A stretch of 64,000 nt of DNA. It comes from Metabacillus sediminilitoris. Its GTDB lineage: Bacteria; Bacillota; Bacilli; Bacillales; Bacillaceae. The stretch is taken from contig NZ_CP046266.1 of the NCBI RefSeq assembly GCF_009720625.1, forward strand, positions 1,993,501-2,057,500. Direction: 5' to 3'. Each line of letters starts with the position of its first letter. Position 1 is the stretch's first letter. Positions 38,629-55,409 of this stretch are shown here, piece by piece. Below the pieces are notes generated by a model, which made no database searches, was not told the origin of the DNA, and worked only from the letters and a program-made list of their open reading frames with translations. Position numbers and translations under genes: made by a program.

Positions 38629-38643
38629 ATGGGGGTGCTTCAT

Positions 38644-38949
38644 TTGGAAAAAATTACATACACATTTCCTGCAACAAAAAATATTCTTCGCATTTCCCAC
38701 GTAGGAGTCGTCGGATCTGGTGACCTGGAAATTATCATGGAACCATCTAGCCATACACAGTCAGAAGTAACCATTCGAACAGGAATCACCGGTTATAAAA
38801 ATACTTGGGATTCCGTTATTCAACGTTTTTTCACACAAAATGATGTCTCGGTGAAAGTGAAAATTAATGATTTCGGAGCAACACCTGGTGTGGTGAAACT
38901 TCGTCTTGAACAGGCATTGGAGGTTAGCTGTCATGATCAGAACATGTAA
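38644..38949 (+). CDS. mdcC: Malonate decarboxylase acyl carrier protein (delta) MdcC
   Basis: About 101 residues from TTG 38644. GGGGGTG lies 7 bases upstream, whereas an ATG at 38629 is itself part of that ribosome binding site. The prosthetic group is attached at the serine of VGVVGSGDLE (about residue 26). INDFGATPGVVKLRLEQAL is the conserved end. The last residues (EVSCHDQNM) arise because its end overlaps the next gene by 17 bases. Confidence 0.9.
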   Translation: MEKITYTFPATKNILRISHVGVVGSGDLEIIMEPSSHTQSEVTIRTGITGYKNTWDSVIQRFFTQNDVSVKVKINDFGATPGVVKLRLEQALEVSCHDQNM

Positions 38950-40618: not shown

Positions 40619-41220
40619 ATCCACATGATTTGCTAGAATTGAAAAGTGTAAAGGGATTGATCAGTCATTCACCATTGCCAGAATGGGTAGAACCATCAAT
40701 TACAAGAGCACCTTTTGTAGTTGTAAGACGTTCCCGAGCAAGTGAAGGATTTGTGGCGGTCGGTGTACGAGGTAGGGCAAGAAATGAGCGATACGCTGCC
40801 TTCATGCCGGTTGATCATCTTTTAAAACGGATTACGCCAGAACAGCTGGCACAAGAAAGAAAATGGAAGAAGCATCCTCAAGAAATTTTTTCTTGCCTAG
40901 AACAGGTCAGTCATATCATGAATGATCATTCACTTATATGGGGACCGGTGGGAAGTGTAGGATTTGAGTTGTTAAGCGGGAAAAAGACAACGACTAAAAA
41001 AAGTGATATTGATATTGTTATTCGTATTTCAGAAGGGTTCACAACTGAGTTTGCAAAAAAAATAGAAGCTGAATTAAAAAAAATTCAGCATCGTGTGGAC
41101 GTTCAAGTGGAATCGACAATTGGAGCCTTTTCTCTAAGTGAGTATGCAGCTTCAGAAGGAAAACCGATTCTCATTCGAACAATCGATGGACCAATCTTAA
41201 AGAAAAGTAATTTACGATAA
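40609..41220 (+). CDS. mdcG: Malonate decarboxylase holo-ACP synthase MdcG
   Basis: 203 residues of the phosphoribosyl-dephospho-CoA transferase family. It attaches the prosthetic group to MdcC. The nucleotidyltransferase core is visible in IWGPVGSVGFELLSGKKTTT and KSDIDIVIRI, with two aspartates for metal binding. It overlaps the mdcDE gene by 10 bases and closes the operon. Confidence 0.9.
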   Translation: MELNPHDLLELKSVKGLISHSPLPEWVEPSITRAPFVVVRRSRASEGFVAVGVRGRARNERYAAFMPVDHLLKRITPEQLAQERKWKKHPQEIFSCLEQVSHIMNDHSLIWGPVGSVGFELLSGKKTTTKKSDIDIVIRISEGFTTEFAKKIEAELKKIQHRVDVQVESTIGAFSLSEYAASEGKPILIRTIDGPILKKSNLR

Positions 41221-41342: not shown

Positions 41343-42128
41343 TTAGCATTTTTTAAAATTTATTTCCTCTCCATAACCAATGATAATTACTTCGGTTTTT
41401 TTATAATCTTTTAACAACTCTTTCAACTCCTGGTCCTTATCAATCATAAATTCTACGACAGGAAAGGCCTTTAATAATTGATTTAAAGACTCCTGTGAAG
41501 CTGCCGTTTTTTTAGTAGGAAAGGTATGACTTGGAATCACATATTTTACTTTTAATAAATGTTTAACTGCATAAGCTGCTTCTTTCGGCCCCATCGTAAA
41601 ATGGCCTGATGAGGATAAGATAGCAATGTCCGGATGATAAACGTCTTGAATCAGCTTCATATCTGACATGAGTGCCGTATCACCTGAATGGTAAAGGGTA
41701 TAATCGTGTAAAAAATCAAAAATATAGCCAGCTGCTTCACCGGCATACACTGGCGTACCTTGTGTCTCTTGATAGGAAGATGTATGTATTGCCTGCACCA
41801 TCGTCACAGTAACATCATCAAATGAGACTGCACCACCAATATTAATAGGAAGCACATTTTTAAGACCTTGTTGAAGGAGGATCAAAGCCAATTCATATTG
41901 TGCAACAATCATAATGTCAGGCTTGACTTCAACTAATTTAGAAAGTCCACTTGTATGATCAAAATGTCCATGAGTAAGGAAGACACAATCAATTGATTGA
42001 TAAAAATCCTCATGATCCAAATCTGGAGGAAACCCAGGGTTTAAATCAAAAAAAGGGTCAATTAAGTAGTTTTTTCCTTCATTACTTTTTAAAACATACA
42101 TGGCATGACCCAAACGTAAAATGTTCAT
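41343..42128 (-). CDS. MBL-fold metal-dependent hydrolase (UPF0173-like)
   Basis: 261 residues. The metal-binding signature is LTHGHFDHT (about residues 51-59). A further histidine lies at AIHTSSYQ, and Asp/His at YHSGDTALM and IPSHTFPTK. This is the pattern of the YtkL/UlaG-like MBL family with two-metal active sites. AAGGAGG precedes the ATG at 42128. The substrate is unknown. Its first about 50 codons and upstream region recur as a diverged fragment at 56428-56722, on the far side of the island. Confidence 0.85.
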   Translation of the reverse strand: MNILRLGHAMYVLKSNEGKNYLIDPFFDLNPGFPPDLDHEDFYQSIDCVFLTHGHFDHTSGLSKLVEVKPDIMIVAQYELALILLQQGLKNVLPINIGGAVSFDDVTVTMVQAIHTSSYQETQGTPVYAGEAAGYIFDFLHDYTLYHSGDTALMSDMKLIQDVYHPDIAILSSSGHFTMGPKEAAYAVKHLLKVKYVIPSHTFPTKKTAASQESLNQLLKAFPVVEFMIDKDQELKELLKDYKKTEVIIIGYGEEINFKKC

Positions 42129-42262: not shown

Positions 42263-42469
42263 ACAGTGGCATTAGCCGAGAACATATCATAAGAAAGGAC
42301 ATATAAATATTATGTAATTCTTTATTTATGCATAAGTAGATAGGAAAACCATACTTGGCACATAGGTAACCCTGTGAAAGTATTGCCGCAATTTGTTCTA
42401 AATTTCTTCCAACATACTATCCTGCATGGCGATACAAATGAAGTGCTGATCAAAGGATGATTTTACAGT

Positions 42470-43443
42470 ATTGCTGGAAATACGTTCGGCGAGATGTTCT
42501 AAATCACGACCTTGGAGAGTCGCATGGAGCGGCGGTCGGTGTCAGCGTGACTTCACCGCGCAAATAATACGTTATCGTCCATATTTTATCAGGTGTATTT
42601 GAGGGAAAGACGACCGGTACGTCGCTTTTTGTGATCCTGAACAATCATGACATAAGCCCGGCAGCTTACAGCATGATTCAACATGTTTTCCGCCCGGGCC
42701 ATGCGGACTTTACTTAGCTCAAGAAGTACGGAATTCGTGATTACCGAGGGAGTTGGAGGGCATCAGGAAGGGAATCAGCAGGCCGAGTGGTAGGAGGGCA
42801 GTGGCGTGTATACTACTGGAACGAAGAGGTGTGCAGGTGCTGGCTTATACGAAAGAAATAGGGGGAAAATGCATGCCGGCATTCGAAGAGCAAGCCATCG
42901 AGCAAAATATCGTCCGTGCCTGCGACCCGACATCAGCAACTGAAATGGCGAAGAAGATCGAGCAGTTGGCGACGGTAGGCAACAGCTGCGGAGGCATCGT
43001 AGAATGCCGGATCCACGGTGTCGTCATCCGGCCTCGGTGAACAGGTATTCGATAAGTTGGATGCAGAGTTGGCCAAGGTAATGTTATCTATCGACGTGGT
43101 GAAAGGCATAGAATAGGTTCTGGCTTCTCCGCAGCTTCAATGCTTGGAAGCGAGCATAACGGCGAGTTGAGTTCCTCTGGTTTTTTGTCTAATCATTCGG
43201 GTGGGATTATCGACGGAATAAGTACAGGACAAGAAATCATTTTCGTACCGAGTTGTCGAAAAGCCGACGTCATCGATTTCAGTTCCGCAGAAGACGATTA
43301 ACTTTAGAGGAGAAGAACAGGAGATTTGGACAGAAGGCAGGCATGATCCGTGTATTTGCCCGAGAATCGTATCGGTCATCGAGGCGATGGCATGCCTGGT
43401 ATTGGAAGATCATTATAAACGACAATCCGCTATGCTGGGCTGA
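42470..43443 (+). pseudogene. aroC: Chorismate synthase pseudogene
   Basis: Piecewise translation in three frames matches chorismate synthase in order. It runs NTFGEMF, then [33 protein letters not shown], and EEQAIEQNIVRACDP at 42880-42920. [34 protein letters not shown], and [20 protein letters not shown] to a stop at 43441 follow. The start codon appears changed (ATT before GCTGGAAAT), with at least five frameshifts and an in-frame stop. At 324 codons it is shorter than the usual 360-390, so internal pieces are lost. It is G+C-richer than the mdc genes, like the island that follows. Confidence 0.85.
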
Positions 43444-43469
43444 AGGTTATTTGGAAAGGAGAGTTATCC

Positions 43470-45233
43470 ATGTCTGATGAAAAGCTGGAGAGAGAGAGGA
43501 AATTAAAGGATTTACTGGTACGTTTAACGGATTCGCCATTTTACAATCGAAAATTAGCGGATTATAATCTGATGAACATAGGACTAAAACAAATCTCTAC
43601 ATTGCCGATTACAGTAAAAGGCGAACTTCGAAAGGCAGGATCATTTGATCATCTTGCTGTTGACCATAAAGAAGCGGTACATTATTGCGAATCGTTCGGT
43701 ACTACTGGAGAACCAACATCTGCTTGGTTGACGAAGGAGGATTTGGAAACAGGCATAAGACAAATAAAAGGGTGCGGGGTACGGATTGACAAAGAAGACA
43801 TTGTACTGCTTCGATTTCCACATGGATTGACGGCTACCGCATTTCTTATGCAGCAAACCTGCCTTCAAGTGGGGGCGACGATTATCCCCGAGTACAGTAC
43901 GATTACCCCTTATCCTAAGTTGCTTGATCTCATGAATCGACTGTACGTCACGATCATTGCAGGATCTCCTCGAGAGATAGAATTGTTGGCCGAGACGACG
44001 CGCTTGCTTGGTTTAAACAGTAGCGAGCATTTCCCCTCTCTCCGGGCGATCATTGTTACCGGAGAAGTAGTGGGTGAACGTCGAAAGGAGCATTTGAAAC
44101 GGAGGTGGGGTGTTCCAATAATTGATATATACGGTACTGCCGAGACTGCTAATATTGCAGCAATGTGCGAGCATGGCGCAATGCATGTCTTAGAGCAGGA
44201 CGTTTTGGTTGAAACGCTTAAGGAAGATGGTTCCCGACTTGCCAAACCGGGGGAGAGGGGGCTCGCTGCAATTACGACATTGTCCCATCAAGCTTCACCG
44301 CTGCTGCGGTATCTCAACGAAGACGTGATCTCCGTCGAGCAGGGTTTATGCGCATGCGGCCAAACCGAAAGCAAGCTCGTCCATTATGGTCGACTGAAGG
44401 ATAGAACTAGATTTGGGGAGATTGTGTTGGATGAAAAGGATATTCAGGACGCCGTATACTCGTTGGCTCCCGTACCCGATGCTTGGAAAGCTATGCAGCG
44501 AGAGAACGGATTTCATATGATTCTCGATTCGGAGCGATATGCCGATTGGTCGTTGGAGAGAATTCAGGTTCAATTATCCGAAATGCTGAAGGTGACGGTA
44601 ACCGCGGAGATCGGCTTCAACACGCTGCTTAACCGGGATGAGCTCACACGAAATGTTGCTCCAAAGAGAGAGGTCTATATATGTAAGGGCGACAACGAAG
44701 ATCCTGACACAAGCAGCTCCATTCTATTGCGAGACTTGCTTCGTCGCGGTTACAGCGAGTTTATGAGCGACAAGTACAAGAAAGCACAGAAATTGTTTGA
44801 AGAGGCGGTTGCGCTGATTCCCCATAGTGCTGAAGCGCATGCATGGCTGGCTGCGGTTTACGGTCGGCAGATCGATGCGGCTTGGAGTTTGAAGGAGAAA
44901 ATTGAACTTTTTTCGATGCTGGAAAACGAAATAACGACCGCCCTTGGAATCGACCCGACATTGCCGCTCGCTAGGAGAATGAACGGATCGAAATTGTTAA
45001 ATACGCCGGATATGCTAGGGGGAGACCCCTCCTTAGCAGCCAATGAATTCCGTTATTGTATCGACCAGGGGATGAATGACGTTGAAATATGGGTATCGCT
45101 GGCTGAATGTTATATGAAAATGGATGATCCGGTTAAAGCGAAAGAAGTATTAAAAGTAGCATTGGCTCTAGAGCCAATGCATGAAAGAGCGACACAATTA
45201 TTGGAGCAAGCAAAAAAACGCGAGGATTTATGA
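43470..45233 (+). CDS. PaaK-like adenylate-forming enzyme fused to TPR domain
   Basis: 587 residues. Residues about 1-405 resemble phenylacetate-CoA ligase/F390 synthetase-type adenylating enzymes. They carry ESFGTTGEPTSAWLTKED (P-loop-like), DIYGTAETANI, a CACGQ zinc-like pair and HYGRLKDRTRFGEIVLDEKD. Residues about 425-587 form TPR-like helices (YKKAQKLFEEAVALIPHSAE, …AKEVLKVALALEPMHERATQ). The C-terminal catalytic lysine motif seen in the 49429 protein (FGKATR) is not evident. GGAAAGGAGA precedes the ATG. It is closely related to the 411-residue protein at 50807, which lacks the TPR part. A role in activating an aromatic acid for a protein-scaffolded assembly is inferred. Confidence 0.8.
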   Translation: MSDEKLERERKLKDLLVRLTDSPFYNRKLADYNLMNIGLKQISTLPITVKGELRKAGSFDHLAVDHKEAVHYCESFGTTGEPTSAWLTKEDLETGIRQIKGCGVRIDKEDIVLLRFPHGLTATAFLMQQTCLQVGATIIPEYSTITPYPKLLDLMNRLYVTIIAGSPREIELLAETTRLLGLNSSEHFPSLRAIIVTGEVVGERRKEHLKRRWGVPIIDIYGTAETANIAAMCEHGAMHVLEQDVLVETLKEDGSRLAKPGERGLAAITTLSHQASPLLRYLNEDVISVEQGLCACGQTESKLVHYGRLKDRTRFGEIVLDEKDIQDAVYSLAPVPDAWKAMQRENGFHMILDSERYADWSLERIQVQLSEMLKVTVTAEIGFNTLLNRDELTRNVAPKREVYICKGDNEDPDTSSSILLRDLLRRGYSEFMSDKYKKAQKLFEEAVALIPHSAEAHAWLAAVYGRQIDAAWSLKEKIELFSMLENEITTALGIDPTLPLARRMNGSKLLNTPDMLGGDPSLAANEFRYCIDQGMNDVEIWVSLAECYMKMDDPVKAKEVLKVALALEPMHERATQLLEQAKKREDL

Positions 45234-45277
45234 AAAATTGCGATAATATAAAAGGTAAGAAAGTATAAAGTCTTTAG

Positions 45278-45310
45278 AATATCACAGCCATTGTAACTGT
45301 GATATTTTTT
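45278..45310 (+). terminator. Terminator of the ligase-TPR gene
   Basis: AATATCACAG pairs with CTGTGATATT, followed by TTTTTT. Confidence 0.8.
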
Positions 45311-45429
45311 GTTAAAATAATTATTGAATCAATAACCAAGAAAAACACCCCCAATATGTCGATCATTGTAGATACGAAGTTGAGGGGTGTTATTTCCTTT
45401 GTCTCCTTTAATAAGGTAACCCTAAAGAA

Positions 45430-45950
45430 TGGGGAAGGCTTCTATGTGCATTCATCGAAACAGAAAGGGAATGTAAAAGAGCTGTTACAATATATTGCAT
45501 GCTATATTCATTGACCTGCTGTTAGGAGGTCGAGGGATATGGCGGGGAGTATGTAACGTTTAAGTACGTCGATTAAACCAATGAGAAAGATAAGCGATAA
45601 ATGCTCTCGATAGAAGCATTTATCAGACGATTAGTACCTCATATACAGGATGAACAATTTAAAACAATTCGTTATTATGAGGTGAATTGACGTCGCCTCA
45701 AACGTTAAAGCAAAGAAAAAATCAGTTTATTTCACAAACCAGTCGTCGTCTAATCGTGAAAGAGAAACGAATGGTGCGTAAAAGAAATTGGAGAGAGCGA
45801 ATACAACACCAGACAGGGAAAGATCCGATGATTTGCCTCAAGTGTTCGTGTTATTTTGAATACAAAGGAGAAGTCTATATTCCGGATTGCGAGTTAGTGA
45901 AAAAGGCAGTGTGTGAAAAAAGCCATCAACTATCATTGCTTGGCTTGTCA
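45430..45950 (+). pseudogene. IS91-type transposase remnant
   Basis: Fragments in several frames read GFYVHSSKQKGNVKELLQYI, then RRNWRERI-like and DPMICLKCSCYFEYKGEVY with a CxxC pair, the C-terminal order of IS91-family (Y2 rolling-circle) transposases known in Bacillus. Stops and frameshifts are frequent. IS91-type elements can move adjacent DNA by one-ended events. Confidence 0.65.
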
Positions 45951-46124
45951 GGAGGAAGAGGTAATTCCTTATGATGTCGTACTAGATTATGGCATCATGG
46001 ATGGAGGAGATCCGATCGTCCCACCACAATTTAGCTGTGAAAATGTAGAGCAGAAATTTATCCAGAATCCTACAAAGGCATTCATGGCCAGGAATATAAA
46101 CTATCGGATGTCCTCTCATCTTGA
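45913..46124 (+). pseudogene. Small zinc-finger-like protein, frameshifted
   Basis: ATG 45913 opens MKKAINYHCLACQEEEVIPY, then DGGDPIVPPQFSCEN. A one-base shift near 46035 is needed to continue into AEIYPESYKGIHGQEYKLSD and a stop at 46122. The C..C…C pattern suggests a small metal-binding protein, found as a conserved hypothetical in Bacillus. It overlaps the IS91 remnant end. Confidence 0.5.
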
Positions 46125-46140
46125 CAAAGGACCGGGCTGG

Positions 46141-46383
46141 TTATTCCCGGTTTTTCTTAATACTCTTCATCATTTCTTGTCCGGCTGCTACGGCACCACT
46201 CTTTAAGATAGTAGGGAGTTTTCCCAATATGAGTTGTGGAGACTGATTCTGATTTACTCCACTCACCGCACCTTTCATATCATTGCCGACTTGGTTAACA
46301 CCGGTGATTAAACCGGTTGTAATGATAGGTTTGGATTGTTCCTTTATTTTCCCAAAGATCTTCTTTATATCAACTTTTGACAT
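46141..46383 (-). CDS. Small hypothetical protein in the island
   Basis: 80 residues from ATG 46383, directly behind AAGGAGGTG. A GTG at 46392 lies inside that ribosome binding site and is rejected. The sequence (MSKVDIKKIFGKIKEQSKPI, then TTGLITGVNQVGNDMKG) looks amphipathic or weakly hydrophobic in the middle with a basic tail. I do not recognise the family. It is first downstream of the two TPR genes on the same strand. Confidence 0.6.
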   Translation of the reverse strand: MSKVDIKKIFGKIKEQSKPIITTGLITGVNQVGNDMKGAVSGVNQNQSPQLILGKLPTILKSGAVAAGQEMMKSIKKNRE

Positions 46384-46482
46384 GCGTGTCACCTCCTTTC
46401 AAAAGAAACTTTCCCTCCCTATGGTCTGTTACAGCATGAAATAGCGCCGTCCTTTCTGATTGAGCCGGTTGCGAGGAGTTTT

Positions 46483-47169
46483 TTATTTCTTTTGCTCCTC
46501 CGCCCAGCTTTGGAGAGCGTTCCCTGCAGCAGTAACGGTCCTTCTTATCAAAATTGATGTGATGCTCTCGGTGTTCGGTATATGCTCAACAGCCGGTTTT
46601 CCTTCCAAATTCTTAAGCTTTAGCTTGAGGAGATGCAGAAAATCAGGATCCAGCGTTTGGTTCATCAGCCTTTTCCAGCACATAGCCGCAGACTGATTTT
46701 GACCGATCCGACAGTATACCTCGCCAAGTTCGTAGACAAGCTGCAAGTATATTTCGTTCTCAAGGAACCCTTCTTTATGCATTTCCCGTTCGATGAGAAA
46801 GGTATAATCTTCAATCGCCGTGTGGGCACGGTGGAAATGCTTTTCAGGCAACTTATATGCGGCCTTGCCTCGCAGGATTCGGATCATGCCATCCTGAGGG
46901 GCGGCACTTACCGCTCCGTCAAGAAGCTTCAGCCCTGCTTTCGACCACCTCAATTTTTCCAAAGGTTTTGTCTTATCCCGAGCGATTAGAATCATGGTGC
47001 TTCCATGGTATGCATCCACAAGCGGGTGGCTTAGAGAGTCTGATCGCACCCGTTCCAACAACTGATGCAAGTCTTGAACGGCCTTTTCATTGCCCTCGAC
47101 GGCGTCCTTGTGTAGTTGAATAACCTGCTTAAGTAAAATCTCAATATCCGTCTCGTTTATATTCACCAA
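46483..47169 (-). CDS. TPR-like helical protein
   Basis: 228 residues, all-alpha. It shares AYHGSTMILIARDKTKPLEK, LDGAVSAAPQDGMIRILRG and AIEDYTFLIER with the 174-residue protein at 47201 (…AYYGSTLALLGRD…AIEDYSFLLER). The two are paralogs with TPR-like repeats. The start is TTG 47169 with AGGAGAGG 9 bases upstream. A GTG at 47166 is an alternative. Similar repeats occur in the C-terminal part of the ligase at 43470, so these may be scaffold or partner proteins of the ligases. Confidence 0.7.
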   Translation of the reverse strand: MVNINETDIEILLKQVIQLHKDAVEGNEKAVQDLHQLLERVRSDSLSHPLVDAYHGSTMILIARDKTKPLEKLRWSKAGLKLLDGAVSAAPQDGMIRILRGKAAYKLPEKHFHRAHTAIEDYTFLIEREMHKEGFLENEIYLQLVYELGEVYCRIGQNQSAAMCWKRLMNQTLDPDFLHLLKLKLKNLEGKPAVEHIPNTESITSILIRRTVTAAGNALQSWAEEQKK

Positions 47170-47200
47170 TTGTCTATTCCTCTCCTGTCATTTTTTCCTG

Positions 47201-47725
47201 TTACTTTTTCTTTGATGTAAACTGTTTTAATCGTTGCAATACTTCATTTGCTTCGCTCAATTTTCCTACATTTTTGTAAGCGGTACTTAGATCCTCCATA
47301 ATTCCCCTCACTTGCGTATTAGTAAGGTAACTGGGATCTTTTTTATAACGTTCCAGCAGGAAGGAGTAGTCTTCGATCGCAGTCTGTGTGCAATGGAAGA
47401 AGGACTCTGGCAGCCGCAGACATACATTCGCACGCAACATCCGAATTTCCTTCTGGTTCGGGTCCATGGAAATCGCTTGATTCAATGAATCTAGTCCTTC
47501 TTGCGCTTTATCTGCTTTTTCCAGAGGCTGAACAGCATCTCGCCCTAATAGCGCAAGAGTGCTGCCGTAATAGGCTTCAATAAGAGCATTGTCGGGCTCG
47601 ATATTGCGAAGCTTTAAGAAAATTTCATAGGCGTTTTTCACCGACTTTTTATCTCCGTCTACGCCTTTCATAAGAACCTTTTTTCCTTCTTCAAATTGAT
47701 TCATATTTGTGTTGTTTTTTTTCAT
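47201..47725 (-). CDS. TPR-like helical protein
   Basis: 174 residues with two or three TPR-like units (EEGKKVLMKGVDGDKKSVKN, LDSLNQAISMDPNQKEIRML, LSTAYKNVGKLSEANEVLQR). AGGAGG precedes the ATG at 47725. It lies 1 base after the stop of the beta-propeller gene, so the two are co-transcribed. Paralog of the 46483 protein, shorter at the C-terminus. Confidence 0.75.
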   Translation of the reverse strand: MKKNNTNMNQFEEGKKVLMKGVDGDKKSVKNAYEIFLKLRNIEPDNALIEAYYGSTLALLGRDAVQPLEKADKAQEGLDSLNQAISMDPNQKEIRMLRANVCLRLPESFFHCTQTAIEDYSFLLERYKKDPSYLTNTQVRGIMEDLSTAYKNVGKLSEANEVLQRLKQFTSKKK

Positions 47726-47726
47726 T

Positions 47727-48641
47727 TCAATTTCCTCCTAACGAAAAATTCGGATCAAGAACAAGAATCTGATACACCTGTTGTACTGGCAATGATACAA
47801 ATCGAGAGATTCTAAATTCGGGATTGTAGACATAGATTCCGCCATCCAAGCAGCAATTCGAGAACTCGTGTGGTATTCGTAAAACATGCCTCATCTTGCT
47901 CTGTCCGATAAAGATCGTATCGTCCGTTATTGCAAGTCCGCGTGTAAAACCTGGTAGTTGAATCGGCGTCTCGTTCCCGGTTATGACACTGAACGACATA
48001 GAGTCGCAATAAGATAGTTTGTTTTGATGCACCATTATCGAATGAGGCATATACAAACTCTTTACGACGACATGATTTGCCGGGTCTATGTCGAGGTGTT
48101 GACTGGGATCAAAATCAGTCAAATCAATCGCGACAATCCCACCGTTTTTATGAGTAGGGTCCAGATACCATTTACCATAAGGAGAAAACATAGAAACATA
48201 TAAAGTATGACCATCCAACCAAATGTCATTAATATGATGAACGTCTTTGTCCTCAGAATTGAATCGAATCTCCCCTATTCGGGTGAACGTTTCGGTCTCA
48301 TAGCATCCGATTGCATTAATCGCTGTTTCCACAACCAAAACAACATGATCATTAAACTTAACGATGTCGTGAAAATCGAGTCTCATGTGTTTCGTTTTCT
48401 GAATGACCTCGAACCTCTGGTCCATAGTAATGATCTGATTATCGTCGGACGCTATGAATAATCGATCCTTAACAAATGTCATTCCCGAACAACTACCGGT
48501 GTAAAGCTTCTCCAAAGCGTTATTTTTAAAGTCTAGTAAAAAAAGTCCACCCTGATCTGAACCACTGGCTGGACAGCTTACCAGAAGACGTGTATTTAGA
48601 TACTCAAAATCTGGATCATTCTCTAATCCGAATAACAACAC
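47727..48641 (-). CDS. DUF4915-like beta-propeller protein
   Basis: 304 residues from GTG 48641 behind AAGGAGGGG. Repeating beta-strand blocks (LFIASDDNQIITMDQRF, VVLVVETAINAIGCYETETF, HHINDIWLDGHTLYVSMFS) match a propeller. The HD at LDFHDIVKF and HHIND resemble the DUF4915 (TIGR03032) family, often found near glycosyltransferase or lipid-related clusters. No signal peptide is visible. A binding or lactonase-like role is possible. It is coupled to the TPR genes. Confidence 0.65.
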   Translation of the reverse strand: MLLFGLENDPDFEYLNTRLLVSCPASGSDQGGLFLLDFKNNALEKLYTGSCSGMTFVKDRLFIASDDNQIITMDQRFEVIQKTKHMRLDFHDIVKFNDHVVLVVETAINAIGCYETETFTRIGEIRFNSEDKDVHHINDIWLDGHTLYVSMFSPYGKWYLDPTHKNGGIVAIDLTDFDPSQHLDIDPANHVVVKSLYMPHSIMVHQNKLSYCDSMSFSVITGNETPIQLPGFTRGLAITDDTIFIGQSKMRHVLRIPHEFSNCCLDGGIYVYNPEFRISRFVSLPVQQVYQILVLDPNFSLGGN

Positions 48642-48796
48642 GGATCAAACCCCTCCTTAAAATAAAAGATTTGTGCTTGCTAAGATATGTAAGGTTTATA
48701 TGAACGGTTTGGATGGAATACTCATTTTTTAAAAAATGTATGTTTATCCGAGGCAAGTCTGAATTTCCTGCATTACATAAAGATTAGAGGAAGGAG

Positions 48797-48868
48797 GAGA
48801 GAACATGTGTAATGGAAATCTAAATAAAGACGGAGAGAACATGTGTCATGGAAATCTAAATAAAGACG
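48797..48868 (+). repeat. 36-bp tandem duplication carrying a ribosome binding site and start codon
   Basis: Two copies of GGAGAGAACATGTGTNATGG plus AAATCTAAATAAAGAC, at 48797-48832 and 48833-48868, differ by one base. Each copy has GGAGAGAACATG, so the small lysine-rich protein can start at either. Confidence 0.85.
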
Positions 48869-48996
48869 ACAGCAAAAAAGCAGAAAAAGCAAAAAAAAGA
48901 GAAGAGAAGTTGGCAAGAAAAAAGGCAGAGAAGCAGGCAAAAGAAAAAAAGAAACAAGAAAAGGAAGCAGCAAAAAATAATGAAGATATAGATTAA
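48805..48996 (+). CDS. Small lysine-rich protein
   Basis: 63 residues. GGAAGGAGGAG precedes ATG 48805. A second in-frame ATG at 48841 has its own GGAGAG and would give 51 residues. The N-terminus repeats MCxGNLNKD twice. Residues 22-60 are almost entirely Lys, Glu, Ala and Arg (KKREEKLARKKAEKQAKEKK), a likely single charged helix. There is no known family. It precedes the ligase genes and resembles in composition the long repeat protein at 54477. Confidence 0.65.
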   Translation: MCNGNLNKDGENMCHGNLNKDDSKKAEKAKKREEKLARKKAEKQAKEKKKQEKEAAKNNEDID

Positions 48997-49428
48997 TTTA
49001 GATGGATCAAAACTGTCCAAGGAAACAATTCACATTATTCATGTGGGTGATTTTATCAAATTTATGTGTTTTGTTTCCTCGGCGAACGCGAAAGACAAGA
49101 ACCTAAAGGTCTTTATAAAAAGGTCAAAGCAGGTGAAACCCTTGGAGTCTACGTGTGTGTCCGATCCTTATGAATCCTAGTCCATAAGAGACGTTATAGA
49201 AATCCGATAGGCAATCGGCAGGAGATTTCGTTGCGCAGATCCTGGCTGCTTTACATTTCTATAACTATATTTTTCAAGAGTCGCAATGAAAGTTTGAGAT
49301 AGGATCGCCACAATTGATATTAGGCTTCAAATGGTTGTAGGATGTTGTCCTATCTCAGGGTACTGGTACAAGCAGTTTAGCCCGCATAATTCTATGAGTA
49401 TTAAGAATACATGGAATGGAGGATTTAG
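48997..49428 (+). other. Intergenic leader of the ligase/DAHP synthase operon
   Basis: About 430 bases without a gene. It holds no clear terminator. GGAGGATTTAG (49415-49425) is the ribosome binding site of the ligase gene. A short palindrome CCGATAGGCAATCGG lies at about 49205. Promoter not located. Confidence 0.4.
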
Positions 49429-50772
49429 ATGAAGTTTCAAACTCATAAGATGACAGTTTCCATTGACGAACATTCATCCCATCTAGAACAATTCAAGGAA
49501 TTTTATAAGCAATTGGATGATGAAGGGAAAACCATTGAAATAATTCCTCATGAAAAAAAAGAAGATTATCAGTTAAAAGCTGTTAACGCTACTCTTGCAC
49601 ATGTGTGGAACCGAAATGAATACTACCGTTCGACGTTGGAAGAGGCAGGCTTCACAGAGCCTAAAATCGATAGTCTAGAACAATTAGCTTCCGTACCGAT
49701 GCTGAAGAAAGATGTCATTAGAGGTGATAAAACAAAGATTTTATGCGTCGATCCAAAAGAAATAGGTCAAGTTCACCTAACTAGCGGCACATCGGGTAAG
49801 CCGATATATACCTCTTACACATTAGCTGATCAATATGTTTACGATCTGCTCCCGAAGTATTTGGAGCTGTTTAAGGAGTCGGACGATGATGTCGCTGCGA
49901 TTGCGCTGCCTTATGAATTTGCGCTGCCCGGCCTTGGATTTCAGCGATTATTTCAATTTGCGTTTGGTACGGCGGTTCTGTCGCTTGGCAAAGGCGGTTA
50001 CATGGCTCCTATCGATAAGTCGTTGGAATTAATGAAGGAATATCAAGCCACTGTCCTTACTACAACCCCTTCTTACGCAGCGCTCTTGGCAGAAGAAAGC
50101 GAGAAGTTCGGTATAAAAATTGGTGAAGATATTCGCCTAAAAAAAATTTGGCTTACCGGCGAAGGATGCTCCTCCACCTTTCGCGAACGGCTGGAAAAGT
50201 GGTGGGGATGTGAGGTCTCCTTCTTCTACGGCTCAACCGAGTGCGGAGTTATCGGTGTAGAATGCAGTAAGCATAAAGGGTATCACGTCATGGAAGGGCA
50301 TGTAAAAGTCGAAATCGTTGATCCGGTTTCGGAGGAAGTGCTTCCGTACGGTCGAACGGGAGAAATTGTTGTGACGACGCTACTGCGTGAAGGAATGCCG
50401 ATGGTACGCTACCGGACCGGGGATCTTGGCAACTTGCAAAAATCCAAATGTGATTGCGGAATCACAATGGACGTTATGCAGCTAAGGGGCCGAAGTGAGC
50501 ACATGCTGCGAATAGGCACCGAAGACTATTCTCCATTTTTGATCGAGCACTTTCTCATGGAGATTCCCGAAGTAGGTTTATGGTATCACCTTAAGCTGGA
50601 TCAAGGAGTGCTCACAATCGAAGCCGAGAAGTTTCGCACGAAGCTAAGCGACGAGCAATTGGCGGCAAAAATTCAAAAGCATATGGCTGATCGGATTGGA
50701 ATACATTGCGAAGTCGTAATCAGACACGATATCCCTCGTACGTTCGGCAAAGCGACGAGAGTATTCAATTAG
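49429..50772 (+). CDS. Phenylacetate-CoA ligase (PaaK) family adenylate-forming enzyme
   Basis: 447 residues with the full PaaK motif set: LTSGTSGKPIYTSYT (phosphate loop), FFYGSTECGVIG, YRTGDLG, a CDCG metal pair, and C-terminal FGKATR with the catalytic lysine. PaaK enzymes activate aryl acids to acyl-AMP and then CoA thioesters. GGAGG precedes ATG 49429. It starts the operon of ligase, ligase, DAHP synthase and chorismate-lyase-like protein. That context suggests an aromatic acid from chorismate as substrate, most simply 4-hydroxybenzoate. Confidence 0.85.
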   Translation: MKFQTHKMTVSIDEHSSHLEQFKEFYKQLDDEGKTIEIIPHEKKEDYQLKAVNATLAHVWNRNEYYRSTLEEAGFTEPKIDSLEQLASVPMLKKDVIRGDKTKILCVDPKEIGQVHLTSGTSGKPIYTSYTLADQYVYDLLPKYLELFKESDDDVAAIALPYEFALPGLGFQRLFQFAFGTAVLSLGKGGYMAPIDKSLELMKEYQATVLTTTPSYAALLAEESEKFGIKIGEDIRLKKIWLTGEGCSSTFRERLEKWWGCEVSFFYGSTECGVIGVECSKHKGYHVMEGHVKVEIVDPVSEEVLPYGRTGEIVVTTLLREGMPMVRYRTGDLGNLQKSKCDCGITMDVMQLRGRSEHMLRIGTEDYSPFLIEHFLMEIPEVGLWYHLKLDQGVLTIEAEKFRTKLSDEQLAAKIQKHMADRIGIHCEVVIRHDIPRTFGKATRVFN

Positions 50773-50806
50773 CTATATACAAAAAACGAGAAAGGAAGGT
50801 GCCTTA

Positions 50807-52042
50807 ATGAGCGACATCGATAGAGAGAGGGCGCGAAAGTTTCAGGAGATGTATATGCGTATTCTAAAATCCCCTCTGTATAAGAGGAAATTATCGGACT
50901 ATGCTTTAAACGGCATTGGGTTGAGTCAAATCCAGACACTTCCGTTAACGACAAAGGAAGATCTGCGGAAAGCCGGCCTCTTCGGTCACCTCGCCGTCGA
51001 TATGAAGGAAATCGCTCAATACCACGAATCGACCGGTACGACCGGGGAGCCCTCTGCCGCCTGGTTTACGCAAAAAGATTTGATAACTGGCGGAAGACAA
51101 TTGAAGGAATGCGGTGTGCATCTGACGTCTGAAGATCTGGTGCTGATCCGTTTTCCTTACGCAATGGCGCTGCCTGCATTCTTAATGCAGCATGCAGCTT
51201 GGCAGACAGGAGCCGGGGTCGTTCCCGCAAGCGGACGTACTGTAGTTACCCCTTACCCCAGAGTGTTAAGCCTGATGAAACATCTTTCTGTCACGGTGTT
51301 GGCGGGACTCCCGCGTGAGATGGAACTGCTGGCCGAAGCGGCTCGTCTCAGCGGTTCTGAGCCGAGTAAGGACTTTCCGGCTTTGCGCGCCATATGCGTA
51401 GCCGGTGAATTGATGAGCGACAAGCGTAGGGAACATATAGAAAAGCTGTGGAACGTGCCTGTATTTAATATGTACGGTTCGACGGAAACTGCTAATATCG
51501 CGACAATGTGCGAGTATGGCACAATGCATATCGTTGAAGAAGATTTTTACGTAGAAGTACTAAATGAGGACGGTTCAAGTCCTATCGCTTATGGAAAAAA
51601 AGGGTTTGCGGCGATCACGACGCTTTCCCATCAAGGTTCACCTCTGCTGCGATACTTTAATGAAGACATTATCTCTGTAGAGCCCTGTTTATGCGATTGC
51701 GGCCGGGCAGGAGCCAAGTTGGTTCATTACGGCAGAAGCAAGGATCGAATCCGTTTCGGAAACATCGTGCTAGACGCAATGGATATTCAGGAAGCCGTAT
51801 ATTCTTTGTCTCCTGCTCCGGATGCTTGGAAGGTGCTAGAGCAGGAAGAGGGGTTGCACATTTTAATAGATTCACATGATTCCGGGAAATGGTCAGAGGA
51901 AAAAGTCCGTTCTCGATTATCTTCTCGACTTCAAGTGCCCGTTACCGTTGAAATCACTAAGTTGCTTGATCGTGGCGATCTCATGAGTAACGTTCCATCA
52001 GTAAAGCCTGTTTATATCCAAAAGCGAAGTATCGGCTCATAG
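50807..52042 (+). CDS. PaaK-like adenylate-forming enzyme, single-domain form
   Basis: 411 residues with STGTTGEPSAAWFTQKDL, NMYGSTETANIATM and HYGRSKDRIRFGNIVLDAMD. It aligns along its length with the N-terminal part of the 43470 protein (shared LRKAG, GHLAVD and RYFNEDIISVE blocks) but lacks the TPR extension. The C-terminal lysine motif is not clear (end: NVPSVKPVYIQKR). GAAAGGAAGGTG precedes the ATG 34 bases after the PaaK gene. It may work as a paired or regulatory ligase subunit, or transfer an acyl-AMP to a carrier or protein. Confidence 0.8.
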   Translation: MSDIDRERARKFQEMYMRILKSPLYKRKLSDYALNGIGLSQIQTLPLTTKEDLRKAGLFGHLAVDMKEIAQYHESTGTTGEPSAAWFTQKDLITGGRQLKECGVHLTSEDLVLIRFPYAMALPAFLMQHAAWQTGAGVVPASGRTVVTPYPRVLSLMKHLSVTVLAGLPREMELLAEAARLSGSEPSKDFPALRAICVAGELMSDKRREHIEKLWNVPVFNMYGSTETANIATMCEYGTMHIVEEDFYVEVLNEDGSSPIAYGKKGFAAITTLSHQGSPLLRYFNEDIISVEPCLCDCGRAGAKLVHYGRSKDRIRFGNIVLDAMDIQEAVYSLSPAPDAWKVLEQEEGLHILIDSHDSGKWSEEKVRSRLSSRLQVPVTVEITKLLDRGDLMSNVPSVKPVYIQKRSIGS

Positions 52043-52127
52043 AAAATAGATCCATTGAATTCGATAGATAACGATAATTGATTAGGGAGATTCCCATTAA
52101 TTAGATTTAAAGAAAGGATTGTTCATC

Positions 52128-52955
52128 ATGAGTGATAAATTGCAACAGGAGAAATCACGGCTGCTCGTAAGCCGCCACCATAAAAGCGAGGATACGATTA
52201 TTGATATTAAGCAAGCGGTGATCGGTGGTTCTTCACATACGCTGATCGCAGGTCCCTGCTCAATCGAATCGAGAGATCAGCTTGTAACTGTTGCTTCCGC
52301 TTTAAAGGAAGCTGGCTTACCGGTCTTACGCGGCGGGGCGTTCAAACCGAGAACTTCTCCTTACGATTTTCAAGGACTCGGTGAAGAGGGATTAAAAATT
52401 ATGAAGGATGTGGCTGATGAATTTGGATTGGTGACCATCAGCGAAATTATGAGTTCCTCTCAAATCGATACAGCCGCCCGTTATATCGATATCTTTCAAA
52501 TAGGGGCGCGCAACATGCAGAACTTCGACCTGCTGAAAGCTGTCGGTCAAACGAAGAAGCCCGTACTTCTGAAACGCGGCCTTTCTGCTACTTTGGAGGA
52601 GTTTATGCTTGCAGCAGAATATATTCTGCATCAAGGAAATGACCAGGTCATGTTAATCGAACGTGGTATACGCACTTTCGAGAAAGCGACTCGCAATACG
52701 CTTGATATTTCCGCTGTTCCAATCTTAAAGCTGGAGACCCACCTTCCCGTGCTAGTGGATGTCAGTCATTCTACCGGGCGGAAAGATATTCTGCTGCCTT
52801 GTGCAAAGGCAGCGCTTGCCGCTGGTGCCGACGGGATTATGGTTGAGGTGCACCCGAATCCCTCAGCCGCTCTCTCTGATGCGAAGCAGCAAGTCAACAT
52901 TGATGAGTTTCATGCGTTCTGGAAGGGGCTCTGCGATTCCGGTTTGTACCATTAA
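52128..52955 (+). CDS. aroF: 3-deoxy-7-phosphoheptulonate (DAHP) synthase
   Basis: 275 residues from ATG 52128 behind AAAGAAAGGA. A TTG at 52119 is less likely. DAHP synthase condenses phosphoenolpyruvate and erythrose-4-phosphate, the first step to chorismate. It is of the AroF/KDO8P-synthase-like type: [43 protein letters not shown] and [11 protein letters not shown] with metal-binding His. There is no fused chorismate mutase or regulatory domain, so it may resist feedback control. It sits between ligase and lyase genes. Confidence 0.92.
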
Positions 52956-53012
52956 CAAATTTCAATAAATGTCGAAGAGAGTCGCGGATATTAGTCTAAT
53001 GGAGGTTAGAGT

Positions 53013-53609
53013 ATGGCAGACTCACAGTTTGAGAGAAAGGCGTCTGATTTTTTACACGGATTGATATTCGACTTACTGTTAGTAACAGATGGACGTACAA
53101 CAGATTTGCTGGAAATGCTGTTGAACGAAAAAATTATTGTAGATGTGATCCGGCAAGAAGAAATAGGTGGAGAGGATGCAAATCTGATGGGTGAATCCTC
53201 GGGAGGTCCGTACTATATTCGTGAATCCGTTTTGATCGGCGAGAAAAGTGGATTTGTCGTGTCACACAACATTGCGGTTGTATATTCGAAGCATATACCT
53301 CCCGATTTGTTCGAGAAAATTGCGCATCAACAAGAGGGAATTGGAAAAGCAATCAGCTCATTCGGAATGCCTACATTCCGAAAGGTGGTCGACTCCGGTT
53401 TCATGAACGAAGCGGAAACGATCGATCTTTTTCAACGGCCAATCAAGGTTCACTTTTCTAATCTGCAAAATAAGGTGCCTTACAAAAGATACTACATTTA
53501 TTTCGGCCGTAAACCGGGGATTCAGCTGCTCGAATATTTCCATCCGAGCATTATCGGACACCGTTTACAGCAGGGGATGACGAAAGAGCAATCGAACAAA
53601 GAAGAATAG
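53013..53609 (+). CDS. Chorismate lyase-like protein (DUF98/UbiC fold)
   Basis: 198 residues. LLLVTDGRTTDLLEMLLNEK, YYIRESVLIG with the pocket arginine, GIGKAISSFGMPTFRKVV, YKRYYIYFGRKPGIQLLEYF match the order of DUF98 chorismate lyases, which release pyruvate from chorismate to give 4-hydroxybenzoate. GGAGG precedes the ATG. It follows DAHP synthase by 57 bases in the same direction. Product could be another hydroxybenzoate, since the fold also covers related enzymes. Confidence 0.7.
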   Translation: MADSQFERKASDFLHGLIFDLLLVTDGRTTDLLEMLLNEKIIVDVIRQEEIGGEDANLMGESSGGPYYIRESVLIGEKSGFVVSHNIAVVYSKHIPPDLFEKIAHQQEGIGKAISSFGMPTFRKVVDSGFMNEAETIDLFQRPIKVHFSNLQNKVPYKRYYIYFGRKPGIQLLEYFHPSIIGHRLQQGMTKEQSNKEE

Positions 53610-53731
53610 GTTCTAAAAGAAGAGTAACTGAATAATGGCTGACTCTACTGGAGAAACGCATCCCTTAGAGATCAGCCATTGCTTTTTGAATATGAGGGCC
53701 TCAGCAGTGAATTATATGCTAACAGGCTTTC

Positions 53732-54010
53732 TTATTTTTTTCTTGATTTTGCTTTCATTTGTTCGAAGATATCGCCCCCGGAGACGACCATTTGTTCACC
53801 AGCATATTGTACACCCTTCTTTACGGCTTCAAATAAATTTCCTACAACGATATCGACGGGTTTATCACGATCTTTTAAAGCTTCAATGAATTCTTTCTCG
53901 GCTACGTCTGCTCCATTTTTGACTGCCGTCGTGTAGTTAGCGACAAAGTATCTAAATCTTTGATTGATTTCGCGAAAAAAATTCGAAACCTCTTGATTAT
54001 CCCTTAACAA
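53732..54010 (-). CDS. Small helical protein in the island
   Basis: 92 residues from TTG 54010, which follows AAGGAGGTG. A GTG inside the ribosome binding site gives 95. The sequence is charged and helical (EVSNFFREINQRFRYFVANY, AVKNGADVAEKEFIEALKDR, AVKKGVQYAGEQMVVSGGDI). It is not recognised. Its position, size and strand resemble the 80-residue protein at 46141, with no clear sequence similarity. Confidence 0.6.
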   Translation of the reverse strand: MLRDNQEVSNFFREINQRFRYFVANYTTAVKNGADVAEKEFIEALKDRDKPVDIVVGNLFEAVKKGVQYAGEQMVVSGGDIFEQMKAKSRKK

Positions 54011-54109
54011 CTGTTTCACCTCCTTACGATTCTACATTAGTTGCTTTCCAAATGGAGTCTACACTTCCTGCTACCCTTCATCATGAAACTGAATTGCTTC
54101 AGCCATCCT

Positions 54110-54307
54110 TTACTCGTCGGATGCGGCTTTCAACGCGGTCGCACCCTCGTGATCCTGCATCGGAAGGGAATCAATCGCCGTTCGTTTATTGCCGTCCCTA
54201 GATGTAACCAATGCAACGATAACGCCCACCACTAGTACGAAAACAAACACGCCGCATAAACTCATACCCAGAATGAATAAAATTCTATCCCCAATCCTTG
54301 TTTTCAT
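54110..54307 (-). CDS. Small single-pass membrane protein
   Basis: 65 residues. One membrane segment at about residues 9-34 (ILFILGMSLCGVFVFVLVVG), with a charged outside or inside tail (SRDGNKRTAIDSLPMQDHEG). AAGGAAGGAG precedes ATG 54307. No family recognised. It may anchor a partner of the island's pathway. Confidence 0.6.
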   Translation of the reverse strand: MKTRIGDRILFILGMSLCGVFVFVLVVGVIVALVTSRDGNKRTAIDSLPMQDHEGATALKAASDE

Positions 54308-54476
54308 TCTACTTGGACTCCTTCCTTATAAGGTTAGTTCAGTATATGATTAAATATCCTAGATCATATAGGTAATGGACTATTATTCGGTGAATTCCAC
54401 TTTAGTCCAATCCAGGTTAGCAAACTCACATATAAATATAAGTGTCATCAACCCTATAAAAGGAGGTTCCCCATCA

Positions 54477-55409
54477 ATGGATCATATTCAGAGGAAAACT
54501 GATTCTAATCCGTTCACAGATGAAGAAGCACTTTCAACCGTTTCGAACCAGGAGGGCAATTTGGAGTGGAAGCAGTTTATCCAAAAAGAGTTAGAGAAAC
54601 TAGAAAATCAGGAAAAGGATGAAGGGAAAGAAGACTCGGAGACGACCTCATCGGCTAAGACGGAGTTTACACTCAGTTCCCTTATCGAGCAGATACCTCT
54701 AGAAAAAATGATCGATTCAGCAATACGAATTTTTAATAAGAAGACAGAAGCGGAAAAAACAAAACCAGAAAAAACAGAAGCGGAAAAAACAAAACCAGAA
54801 AAGACAGAAGCGGAAAAAACAAAACCAGAAAAGACAGTAGCGGAAAAGACAAAACCAGAAAAGACAAAACCAGAAAAGAAAGTAGCGGAAAAGACAAAAC
54901 CAGAAAAAACAAAACCAGAAAAGACAGTAGCGGAAAAGACAAAACCAGAAAAAACAAAACCAGAAAAGACAGTAGCGGAAAAGACAAAACCAGAAAAAAC
55001 AAAACCAGAAAAAACAAAACCAGAAAAGACAGTAGCGAAAAAAACAAAACCAGAAAAGACAGTAGCGGAAAAAACAAAACCAGAAAAGACAAAAGCGAAA
55101 AAAACAGAACAAAAAAAACAGAACCGGAAAAAAGAGATAGTTCTAAGTGGCACCTACATGAATCAAGAATATGACAGTAATTCATTGTTAAATGAGTTAA
55201 AAGAAAAAGTAAAACGCCGCGGCCAGCAACTACATTTACAGCGTGTTGAAGCTGAAAAAGAAAAAGCACTAAGAGATGGTAAAGAAAAATTCATTGAAGC
55301 ATTTAAAATACCATCTTCCTTAAAAACCTCTGACGAATTGAATGATCTTATTTTGAGGTTATATGAGTTGAAAAAGCAAATGAAAAATTCCAAGAAAATA
55401 GAGGAATGA
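54477..55409 (+). CDS. Lysine/glutamate-rich repeat protein
   Basis: 310 residues from ATG 54477 behind AAAGGAGG. The frame upstream has no ribosome binding site. Residues about 1-90 are acidic and polar. Residues about 90-215 consist of repeats of KTKPE, KTEAE and KTVAE type (54740-55110). The last about 95 residues are helical (NELKEKVKRRGQQLHLQRVE, ELNDLILRLYELKKQMK). There is no signal peptide or membrane segment. Repeats carry about one lysine per 2-3 residues with prolines, an extended charged rod. It is the last gene before the pglX remnant. The similar small lysine-rich protein at 48805 and the ligases suggest a possible substrate or scaffold, but this is inference. Confidence 0.75.
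   Translation: MDHIQRKTDSNPFTDEEALSTVSNQEGNLEWKQFIQKELEKLENQEKDEGKEDSETTSSAKTEFTLSSLIEQIPLEKMIDSAIRIFNKKTEAEKTKPEKTEAEKTKPEKTEAEKTKPEKTVAEKTKPEKTKPEKKVAEKTKPEKTKPEKTVAEKTKPEKTKPEKTVAEKTKPEKTKPEKTKPEKTVAKKTKPEKTVAEKTKPEKTKAKKTEQKKQNRKKEIVLSGTYMNQEYDSNSLLNELKEKVKRRGQQLHLQRVEAEKEKALRDGKEKFIEAFKIPSSLKTSDELNDLILRLYELKKQMKNSKKIEE
54740..55110 (+). repeat. Coding tandem repeats, EKTKPEKT type
   Basis: About 370 bases of near-identical units (GAAAAGACAAAACCAG and GAAAAGACAGTAGCG) in varying order. Units differ mainly by AAA/AAG third-base swaps. Such an array expands and contracts easily, so length should vary between strains. Antisense frames through it are low-complexity artefacts. Confidence 0.85.

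Follow-up and report, generated by a model that had tools for sequence, protein, structure and literature searches.

Gene content of the cluster

We analysed a gene cluster at 42.4–55.4 kb of a 64,000 nt window (the whole stretch of DNA under study) from the genome of Metabacillus sediminilitoris, a single contig of 5.6 Mb. The plus strand carries a decayed chorismate synthase gene, the ligase gene LIG1, a small lysine-rich open reading frame (ORF), the ligase genes LIG2 and LIG3, and genes for a 3-deoxy-d-arabino-heptulosonate 7-phosphate (DAHP) synthase, a DUF98-like chorismate lyase candidate and a protein with lysine-rich repeats, LYSr. Two gene groups lie on the minus strand: PROP, the tetratricopeptide repeat (TPR)-like TPRb and TPRa, and the small protein SMa; then TM1 and SMb. 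A preliminary description of this DNA had named the DAHP synthase, the DUF98-like lyase, three PaaK-type ligases, TPR proteins, a DUF4915-like protein and lysine-rich proteins, all of which are present, and had proposed the aroylation of lysines in the repeat protein. SMa, SMb and TM1 are cluster genes beyond those named there. Our analysis adds sporulation-type promoter sites, the homology of the predicted helical proteins SMa and SMb, and sister clusters; aryl-ester formation linked to sporulation replaces lysine aroylation as the most likely reading, which we hold tentatively.

Conservation and distribution

The lyase profile, built from 43 homologues, was scanned against one genome per species. 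This yielded 47 loci (numbered with the prefix L), including two same-genome pairs (L033/L034 and L048/L049); the set may omit genomes very near that of the window. Components were counted among our own ORF picks, each labelled by its best-scoring window protein, a procedure in which small genes may be undercounted and some labels represent fragments or weak matches. In 44/47 loci, spanning Bacillaceae, Paenibacillus, Cohnella and others, LIG2 and either a LIG3-type (38 loci) or a full-length LIG1-type ligase were located within 10 kb of the lyase, the LIG3 labels of L034 and L051 being left out of this count. The exceptions were L034, a second lyase locus whose cluster is at L033 on the same contig, and L048 and L051, which are partial and located at contig ends. 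Gene order and strand were mostly kept, with rearrangements in L037, L042 and the Cohnella versions. A CPBP-type membrane protein was labelled in 21/47 loci, with a Pfam check on the L046 member.

In a sample of 398 genomes from the class, the window's genome included, LIG3 was detected in four (E≤1e-90), and the four strongest lyase matches fell in the same four genomes; weaker lyase-like matches (E 3e-38 to 1.6e-4) were found in six further genomes. LIG3, DAHP synthase, lyase and SMb stood together in the short stretches fetched from the other three LIG3 genomes. Bacillus methanolicus also encodes close relatives of LIG3 and SMb. The window's gene order was matched in three of 299 genomes, itself included, one of them weakly. 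Because of the 44/47 linkage and the few genomes holding LIG3, we conclude that the cluster is real, linked and patchy, and rare in the class. The co-occurrence anticipated in the preliminary description thus holds elsewhere, and the combination of a linked 4-hydroxybenzoate supply with adenylate-forming ligases is conserved well beyond this genome.

Adenylate-forming ligases

The three ligases, all encoded on the plus strand, exceeded the gathering score of PF00501 (29.9 bits): LIG1 (43470–45233), a PaaK-like domain fused to TPRs, scored 49.9 bits; LIG2 (49429–50772), a PaaK-type ligase with a C-terminal domain, 61.7 bits; and LIG3 (50807–52042), a PaaK-like ligase, 63.7 bits. LIG2 was identified in 44/47 loci, as was a LIG3- or full-length LIG1-type ligase. 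LIG2 matched PaaK models over most of its length, including the C-terminal domain PF14535 (above cut-off), and scored 182.7 bits against TIGR02155 and 209.3 bits against NF041878, below the respective cut-offs of 646.3 and 700 bits.

The proteins of the LIG3 type end in KP(V/I)Y(I/V), including the TPR-fused ones of Paenibacillaceae (alignment A3; loci with a readable end). We take the conserved lysine of this C-terminal end to serve the adenylation half-reaction; arginine replaces it in LIG1 of the window and of L007, and in P0219 and P0220. In several Paenibacillaceae the TPRs are carried by LIG3 itself, and P0218 is a fusion of a LIG3-like ligase with DAHP synthase.

Among named families, the bagremycin/ferroverdin synthetase BagE/FevW (NCBIfam NF041217) scored highest for both LIG1 and LIG3. 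Ester formation between an aromatic acid and a phenol is credited to this family, FevW is described as resembling enzymes that use adenylation to condense a carboxylic acid with an alcohol moiety (PMC6692506), and p-hydroxybenzoic acid is proposed among the phenols for FevW, the enzymes being uncharacterised (PMC9221444). By analogy, a LIG3-type ligase may form an acid–phenol ester.

Proposed supply of 4-hydroxybenzoate

The DAHP synthase (52119–52955, plus strand; E 6.2e-86; 35/47 loci) matched NCBIfam PRK12595 at profile positions 85–350 of 360 only, and is without the N-terminal part of this bifunctional enzyme model. The missing front part is presumably a chorismate mutase that mediates feedback control, and its absence would fit an unregulated supply. 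The chorismate synthase (AroC) gene (42440–43440, plus strand; left edge placed by eye) is decayed, as the preliminary description had read it: five of the seven frame pieces scanned matched PF01264, in profile order, at 42568–43440, and eight stops interrupt the gene. An intact copy was detected elsewhere in the genome by genome scan. Three loci, L013, L024 and L026, have a full-length chorismate synthase ORF near the other cluster genes, and L007 and L020 gave partial matches; in L026, the start of an ORF just upstream reads by eye like 5-enolpyruvylshikimate-3-phosphate synthase.

The lyase candidate (53013–53609, plus strand) was assigned by profile and fold searches. Its family profile matched the DUF98 structure 2nwi (E 1.5e-4), and 10 of 103 homologues carried the Pfam DUF98 label. 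The structural model, with a predicted local distance difference test score (pLDDT) of 85.6, had 2nwi as its best fold match, followed by UbiC and GntR effector domains, which predicts a chorismate-lyase fold. The arginine R70 was invariant in 43 rows, and an arginine was aligned to UbiC R76, which we take to be the catalytic arginine, in 35/43 pairwise alignments. The glutamate E174 was also invariant and is located in the last strand; in our reading, the order of strands and helices puts it at UbiC E155, presumably the catalytic glutamate. Comparison of the family profile with the C-terminal part of UbiC by hhalign gave no meaningful alignment. The preliminary description took a lack of chorismate-pocket residues as refuting its reading; the modelled protein has the chorismate-lyase fold and an arginine aligned to R76, and the counterpart of E155 is unconfirmed by alignment. 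A fold alone is no proof of activity, and we regard the protein as a putative chorismate lyase; a linked supply of 4-hydroxybenzoate is well supported, if unproven, by the genes that recur together.

Promoter-like sites and a conserved upstream block

We looked for sigma-E and sigma-K patterns within 250 bp upstream of every gene class, in the window as well as in the loci. Markov-chain shuffles and the other ORFs of these loci served as controls, and a first pass used more patterns. The 355 background ORFs were mechanical picks of at least 150 residues. The counts were drawn from related sequences, and Fisher values overstate their independence. Upstream of TM1–SMb in the window, we found a sigma-E-like site, ATA-N18-CATATACT (54341–54369, minus strand). 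Such a site preceded TM1 in 12 of 18 regions, against 0.9 expected and 13/355 for the other ORFs, and the spacer was 18 in all 12. It was present in the window, Gracilibacillus (3/3), Shimazuella (1/1), Cohnella (1/1) and Paenibacillus (6/11), and absent from Peribacillus (0/1).

Upstream of PROP, the window contains a sigma-K-like site, AC-N17-CATATCTTA (48681–48708, minus strand). Upstream of PROP, or of TPRb where PROP was unrecognised, the full site was detected in 10/36 regions and in 1/355 of the other ORFs, and the −10 element alone in 25/36 and 34/355, respectively. As a yardstick, we used the mapped SigK-dependent bclA promoter of Bacillus thuringiensis, given as CAC-N16-CATATGTTA (PMC4750369). 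Patterns for sigma-F, -G, -B, -A, -D and -H gave no comparable excess, the largest being sigma-H upstream of TM1 (3/17; 0.2 expected). Promoter-like sites are thus above background upstream of both minus-strand groups, and since sigma-E/K-like sites precede these groups, the packaging proteins look mother-cell expressed.

The LIG2-to-lyase operon is preceded by a different element, the conserved block TCCGAGGCAA-N13-GCATTACATA (48747–48779, plus strand). Of the 31 divergent regions, 22 contain its core, TCCGARKCAA, against an expectation of 0.075, and its long form occurs once in the genome. The block is roughly dyadic around TTGTCCGAGTCAA, followed by GCATTTCATA at a nearly fixed distance, in other loci as well. 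When compared by eye with sigma-54, sigma-A, sigma-E/K and SpoIIID sites, it fitted none of them well.

Small, TPR-like and lysine-rich proteins

SMa (46141–46392, minus strand) was identified in 30/47 loci (23 at 30 bits or more) and SMb (53732–54019, minus strand) in 38/47 (36 at 30 bits or more). The two proteins are homologous (hhalign probability 98.3), and SMb was modelled as a hairpin of two long helices (pLDDT 84.9). Sequence matches of SMb in PDB were limited to designed proteins and a dynein subunit, and its homologues (49 proteins found) had no Pfam label and no informative name. The phasin family was absent from Pfam matches up to E 0.1, where SMb had no match and SMa one weak, unrelated match. 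By eye, the helical motif looks repeated in the Cohnella versions. Beside SMa, the broken-looking small ORFs at 45687–46206 had no Pfam match above cut-off; the second resembles by eye a short protein beside SMa in L006 (2956–3282).

TPRa (46483–47169, minus strand; 37/47 loci) and TPRb (47201–47725, minus strand; 34/47 loci) had Pfam TPR matches below cut-off or none, and are TPR-like by their relatives. PROP (47727–48641, minus strand; 13/47 loci) is DUF4915/TIGR03032-like (DUF4915, E 1.7e-13), and TM1 (54110–54307, minus strand; 17/47 loci) has 65 residues with one hydrophobic stretch. The LYSr ORF is listed from 54375; judged by its relatives, the conserved start is probably 54477 (54477–55409, plus strand), and the repeat array lies at 54741–55133. 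LYSr was labelled in 24/47 loci (22 at 30 bits or more), some labels possibly reflecting composition; its lysine-rich stretch is highly variable in both length and residue composition, with some forms short or rich in arginine. The small lysine-rich ORF (48805–48996, plus strand), which separates the two divergent groups of genes, has similar lysine-rich counterparts in seven other loci (L005–L008, L019, L041 and L045). The helical look, judged by eye, together with the lysine-rich tails suggests coating or scaffolding of something hydrophobic.

A metallo-beta-lactamase-fold protein is encoded next to the cluster at 41343–42128 (minus strand), and four consecutive plus-strand ORFs at 37774–41220 look by eye, in the ORF list, like a malonate decarboxylase operon.

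Sister clusters and variants

Two loci, L046 and L047, combine LIG2, LIG3 and a divergent lyase with an aldolase resembling 2-amino-3,7-dideoxy-d-threo-hept-6-ulosonate (ADH) synthase and a protein resembling 3-dehydroquinate (DHQ) synthase II; DAHP synthase was not recognised in either by ORF labelling. The aldolase and the synthase matched BagB/FevI and BagC/FevH, and scored higher against archaeal-type models of ADH synthase and DHQ synthase II, all below cut-off. These enzymes may serve either a 3-amino-4-hydroxybenzoate route, as in bagremycin, or the formation of dehydroquinate for the shikimate route. The higher archaeal-type scores weaken the former route. L046 also encodes an ABC-2 permease and an amidohydrolase, both verified with Pfam, and ABC transporter genes were assigned by similarity in L047. 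Judged by sequence, L050 encodes the same two kinds of enzyme, ADH-synthase-like and DHQ-synthase-II-like; a transporter was not seen there. In L046, L047 and L050, the first genes had no sigma-E/sigma-K-type site within 300 bp upstream. In L046 (10555–11847) and L047 (11406–12707), the TPR protein is preceded by an Asp/Glu-racemase-like domain (by Pfam in L046).

An adenosine 5'-phosphosulfate (APS) kinase gene is located between PROP and LIG2 in L011 (by Pfam), L029, L030 and L041, and a fragment in L006, an indication that some cluster versions include sulfation; in the window's cluster no APS kinase gene was seen, and we do not propose sulfation there. In the Cohnella loci L033, L034, L036, L043 and L044, DAHP synthase was unrecognised and a 4-hydroxy-2-oxovalerate-aldolase-like gene was present (families scanned in L034 only). 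In L078 (genome G040), a TPR protein and an acyl-CoA-synthetase-like gene lie approximately 8 kb away from a divergent DUF98-like protein; LIG2 had no match there and LIG3 only a weak one, and the locus is possibly a further variant.

Interpretation and alternative explanations

Our leading explanation, somewhat short of an even chance, is that a sporulation-linked cluster produces 4-hydroxybenzoate, couples it into an aryl ester and packages the product with helical and lysine-rich proteins. DAHP synthase, with chorismate synthase in some relatives, would supply chorismate in the mother cell during sporulation, and the DUF98-type lyase would convert it to 4-hydroxybenzoate. LIG2 and LIG3 would activate this acid as the acyl-adenylate, and LIG3, being like the bagremycin/ferroverdin synthetase, would transfer the acyl group onto a phenolic hydroxyl. 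The simplest acceptor would be another 4-hydroxybenzoate, giving an aryl ester as a dimer or longer; LIG1, with arginine in place of the C-terminal lysine, may only transfer a preformed adenylate. The product would be held and positioned, most likely in an outer spore layer, by the TPR and lysine-rich proteins together with SMa and SMb. Within this scheme, we infer the lyase activity, the ester step, the identity of the acceptor, the packaging role, mother-cell expression and the spore location; promoter motifs are what would point to deposition in the spore.

A number of observations weigh against this explanation. As regards the enzymes, LIG3 (190.1 bits) and LIG1 (141.4 bits) scored far below the NF041217 cut-off of 800 bits, and the lyase candidate reached 17.3 bits against Pfam PF01947 (DUF98), for which the gathering score is 22. 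The fold of the lyase model is equally close to GntR effector domains and UbiC, and a glutamate was aligned to UbiC E155 in only 3/43 sequence alignments. In the sister clusters, the aldolase and the synthase may belong to the shikimate route, in which case they would be no sign of ester chemistry; because their 3-amino-4-hydroxybenzoate route was weakened, our confidence is slightly lowered. The fold search of SMb against PDB gave a best match of E 0.85, and none at E≤0.001. As regards the promoters, the −35 and −10 letters in TM1 regions also occurred at spacings of 6 (six loci) and 22 (four loci), and the exact sigma-E-type pattern was found 11 times in the genome, the same as its reversed control. 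Since it is no commoner than this control, the pattern alone is not evidence, and it is position and conservation that count. The full sigma-K pattern was absent from the regions of Paenibacillus (0/17; −10 in 12), Cohnella (0/4; −10 in 1) and Shimazuella. Upstream of LYSr the signal was weak, with sigma-E sites in 2/25 (3.0 expected) and sigma-K sites in 3/25 (0.4 expected). Upstream of the LIG2-to-lyase operon, sigma-E sites were found in 0/46 (1.9 expected) and sigma-K sites in 2/46 (0.3 expected); with no recognisable site of either type before this operon, promoters give no timing for the enzymes.

A soluble aryl-ester small molecule that leaves the cell, as an antibiotic or metal chelator of the bagremycin or ferroverdin kind, with small proteins that aid its synthesis or self-protection, is an unlikely alternative, and the one that survives best. 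It would agree with LIG1 and LIG3 matching BagE/FevW best among named families, and with the sister clusters L046 and L047, in which ABC transporter genes accompany the proteins that match BagB/BagC below cut-off. Among the ORFs of the window's cluster, however, no exporter was seen, nor was one in L050; sporulation-type sites precede both minus-strand groups, and several of the conserved proteins are without enzyme domains.

The transfer of 4-hydroxybenzoyl groups by LIG3 or LIG1 to lysines of the lysine-rich or helical proteins, which is close to what the preliminary description put forward, now seems improbable. Lysine-rich proteins do recur near the ligases (LYSr in 24/47 loci), and TPRs fused to ligases could bind protein substrates. 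Yet the scans of window proteins turned up no recognisable acyltransferase, about half of the loci are without a LYSr label, the lysine-rich stretch is strongly variable, and phenol esters are what the nearest named family is credited with.

We consider it rather doubtful that oligo- or poly-4-hydroxybenzoate is deposited inside the cell as a hydrophobic inclusion, with SMa/SMb as a phasin-like coat and the lysine-rich protein as an outer tether. The homology of SMa and SMb, the two-helix model of SMb and the repeated motif in Cohnella are in line with such a coat; against it stand the missing phasin match of SMa and SMb, the missing fold match of SMb, its restricted PDB sequence matches, and the literature matches listed, in which natural poly-4-hydroxybenzoate was not found. 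The DUF98-like protein might be something other than a chorismate lyase, with a different aromatic acid as the one that the ligases activate, but we rate this as very unlikely: its score below the Pfam cut-off, its likeness to GntR effector domains and the unconfirmed E155 counterpart are outweighed by 2nwi as its closest fold and profile match and by the conserved linkage to DAHP synthase and, in some loci, chorismate synthase.

Returning to the sporulation-linked ester, a bolder form of this explanation, to which we give an outside chance, is that the endospores of scattered Bacilli carry an (oligo/poly)ester of 4-hydroxybenzoate as a new spore-protective material, with a dedicated mother-cell branch of the shikimate route and, as holders, a new family of helical-hairpin proteins alongside lysine-rich ones. 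The literature matches listed included nothing relevant to a natural polymer of 4-hydroxybenzoate, to a chorismate route tied to spores or to a DUF98 cluster from Bacilli. If true, some Bacilli spores would contain an aromatic ester, made by a sporulation system of a kind not found among those matches; the unnamed families SMa/SMb, TM1 and LYSr would gain functions, PaaK-type ester synthetases would extend beyond Streptomyces, and the finding could bear on the UV or chemical resistance of spores.

Comparison with known systems

The nearest described system is the bag/fev cluster of Streptomyces, which like the present cluster has a PaaK-family ester synthetase (BagE/FevW) and its own DAHP synthase (BagF/FevY). 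In contrast, three ligases and a chorismate-lyase-like protein are present in the window, where a BagB/BagC-like gene was not seen; helical, TPR and lysine-rich proteins and sporulation-type sites accompany them, and the scores are far below the family cut-offs. LIG2 has in common with PaaK the PF14535 domain and a match over most of its length, with scores below the PaaK cut-offs. Measured against DUF98/Rv2949c-like lyases and UbiC, the lyase candidate falls short of the Pfam gathering score and has 20% identity to 2nwi in structural alignment. The promoter-like sites of the window, known here from sequence alone, share the −10 and −35 letters and the spacing of sigma-E/sigma-K promoters, whereas the enzyme operon carries a different conserved block.

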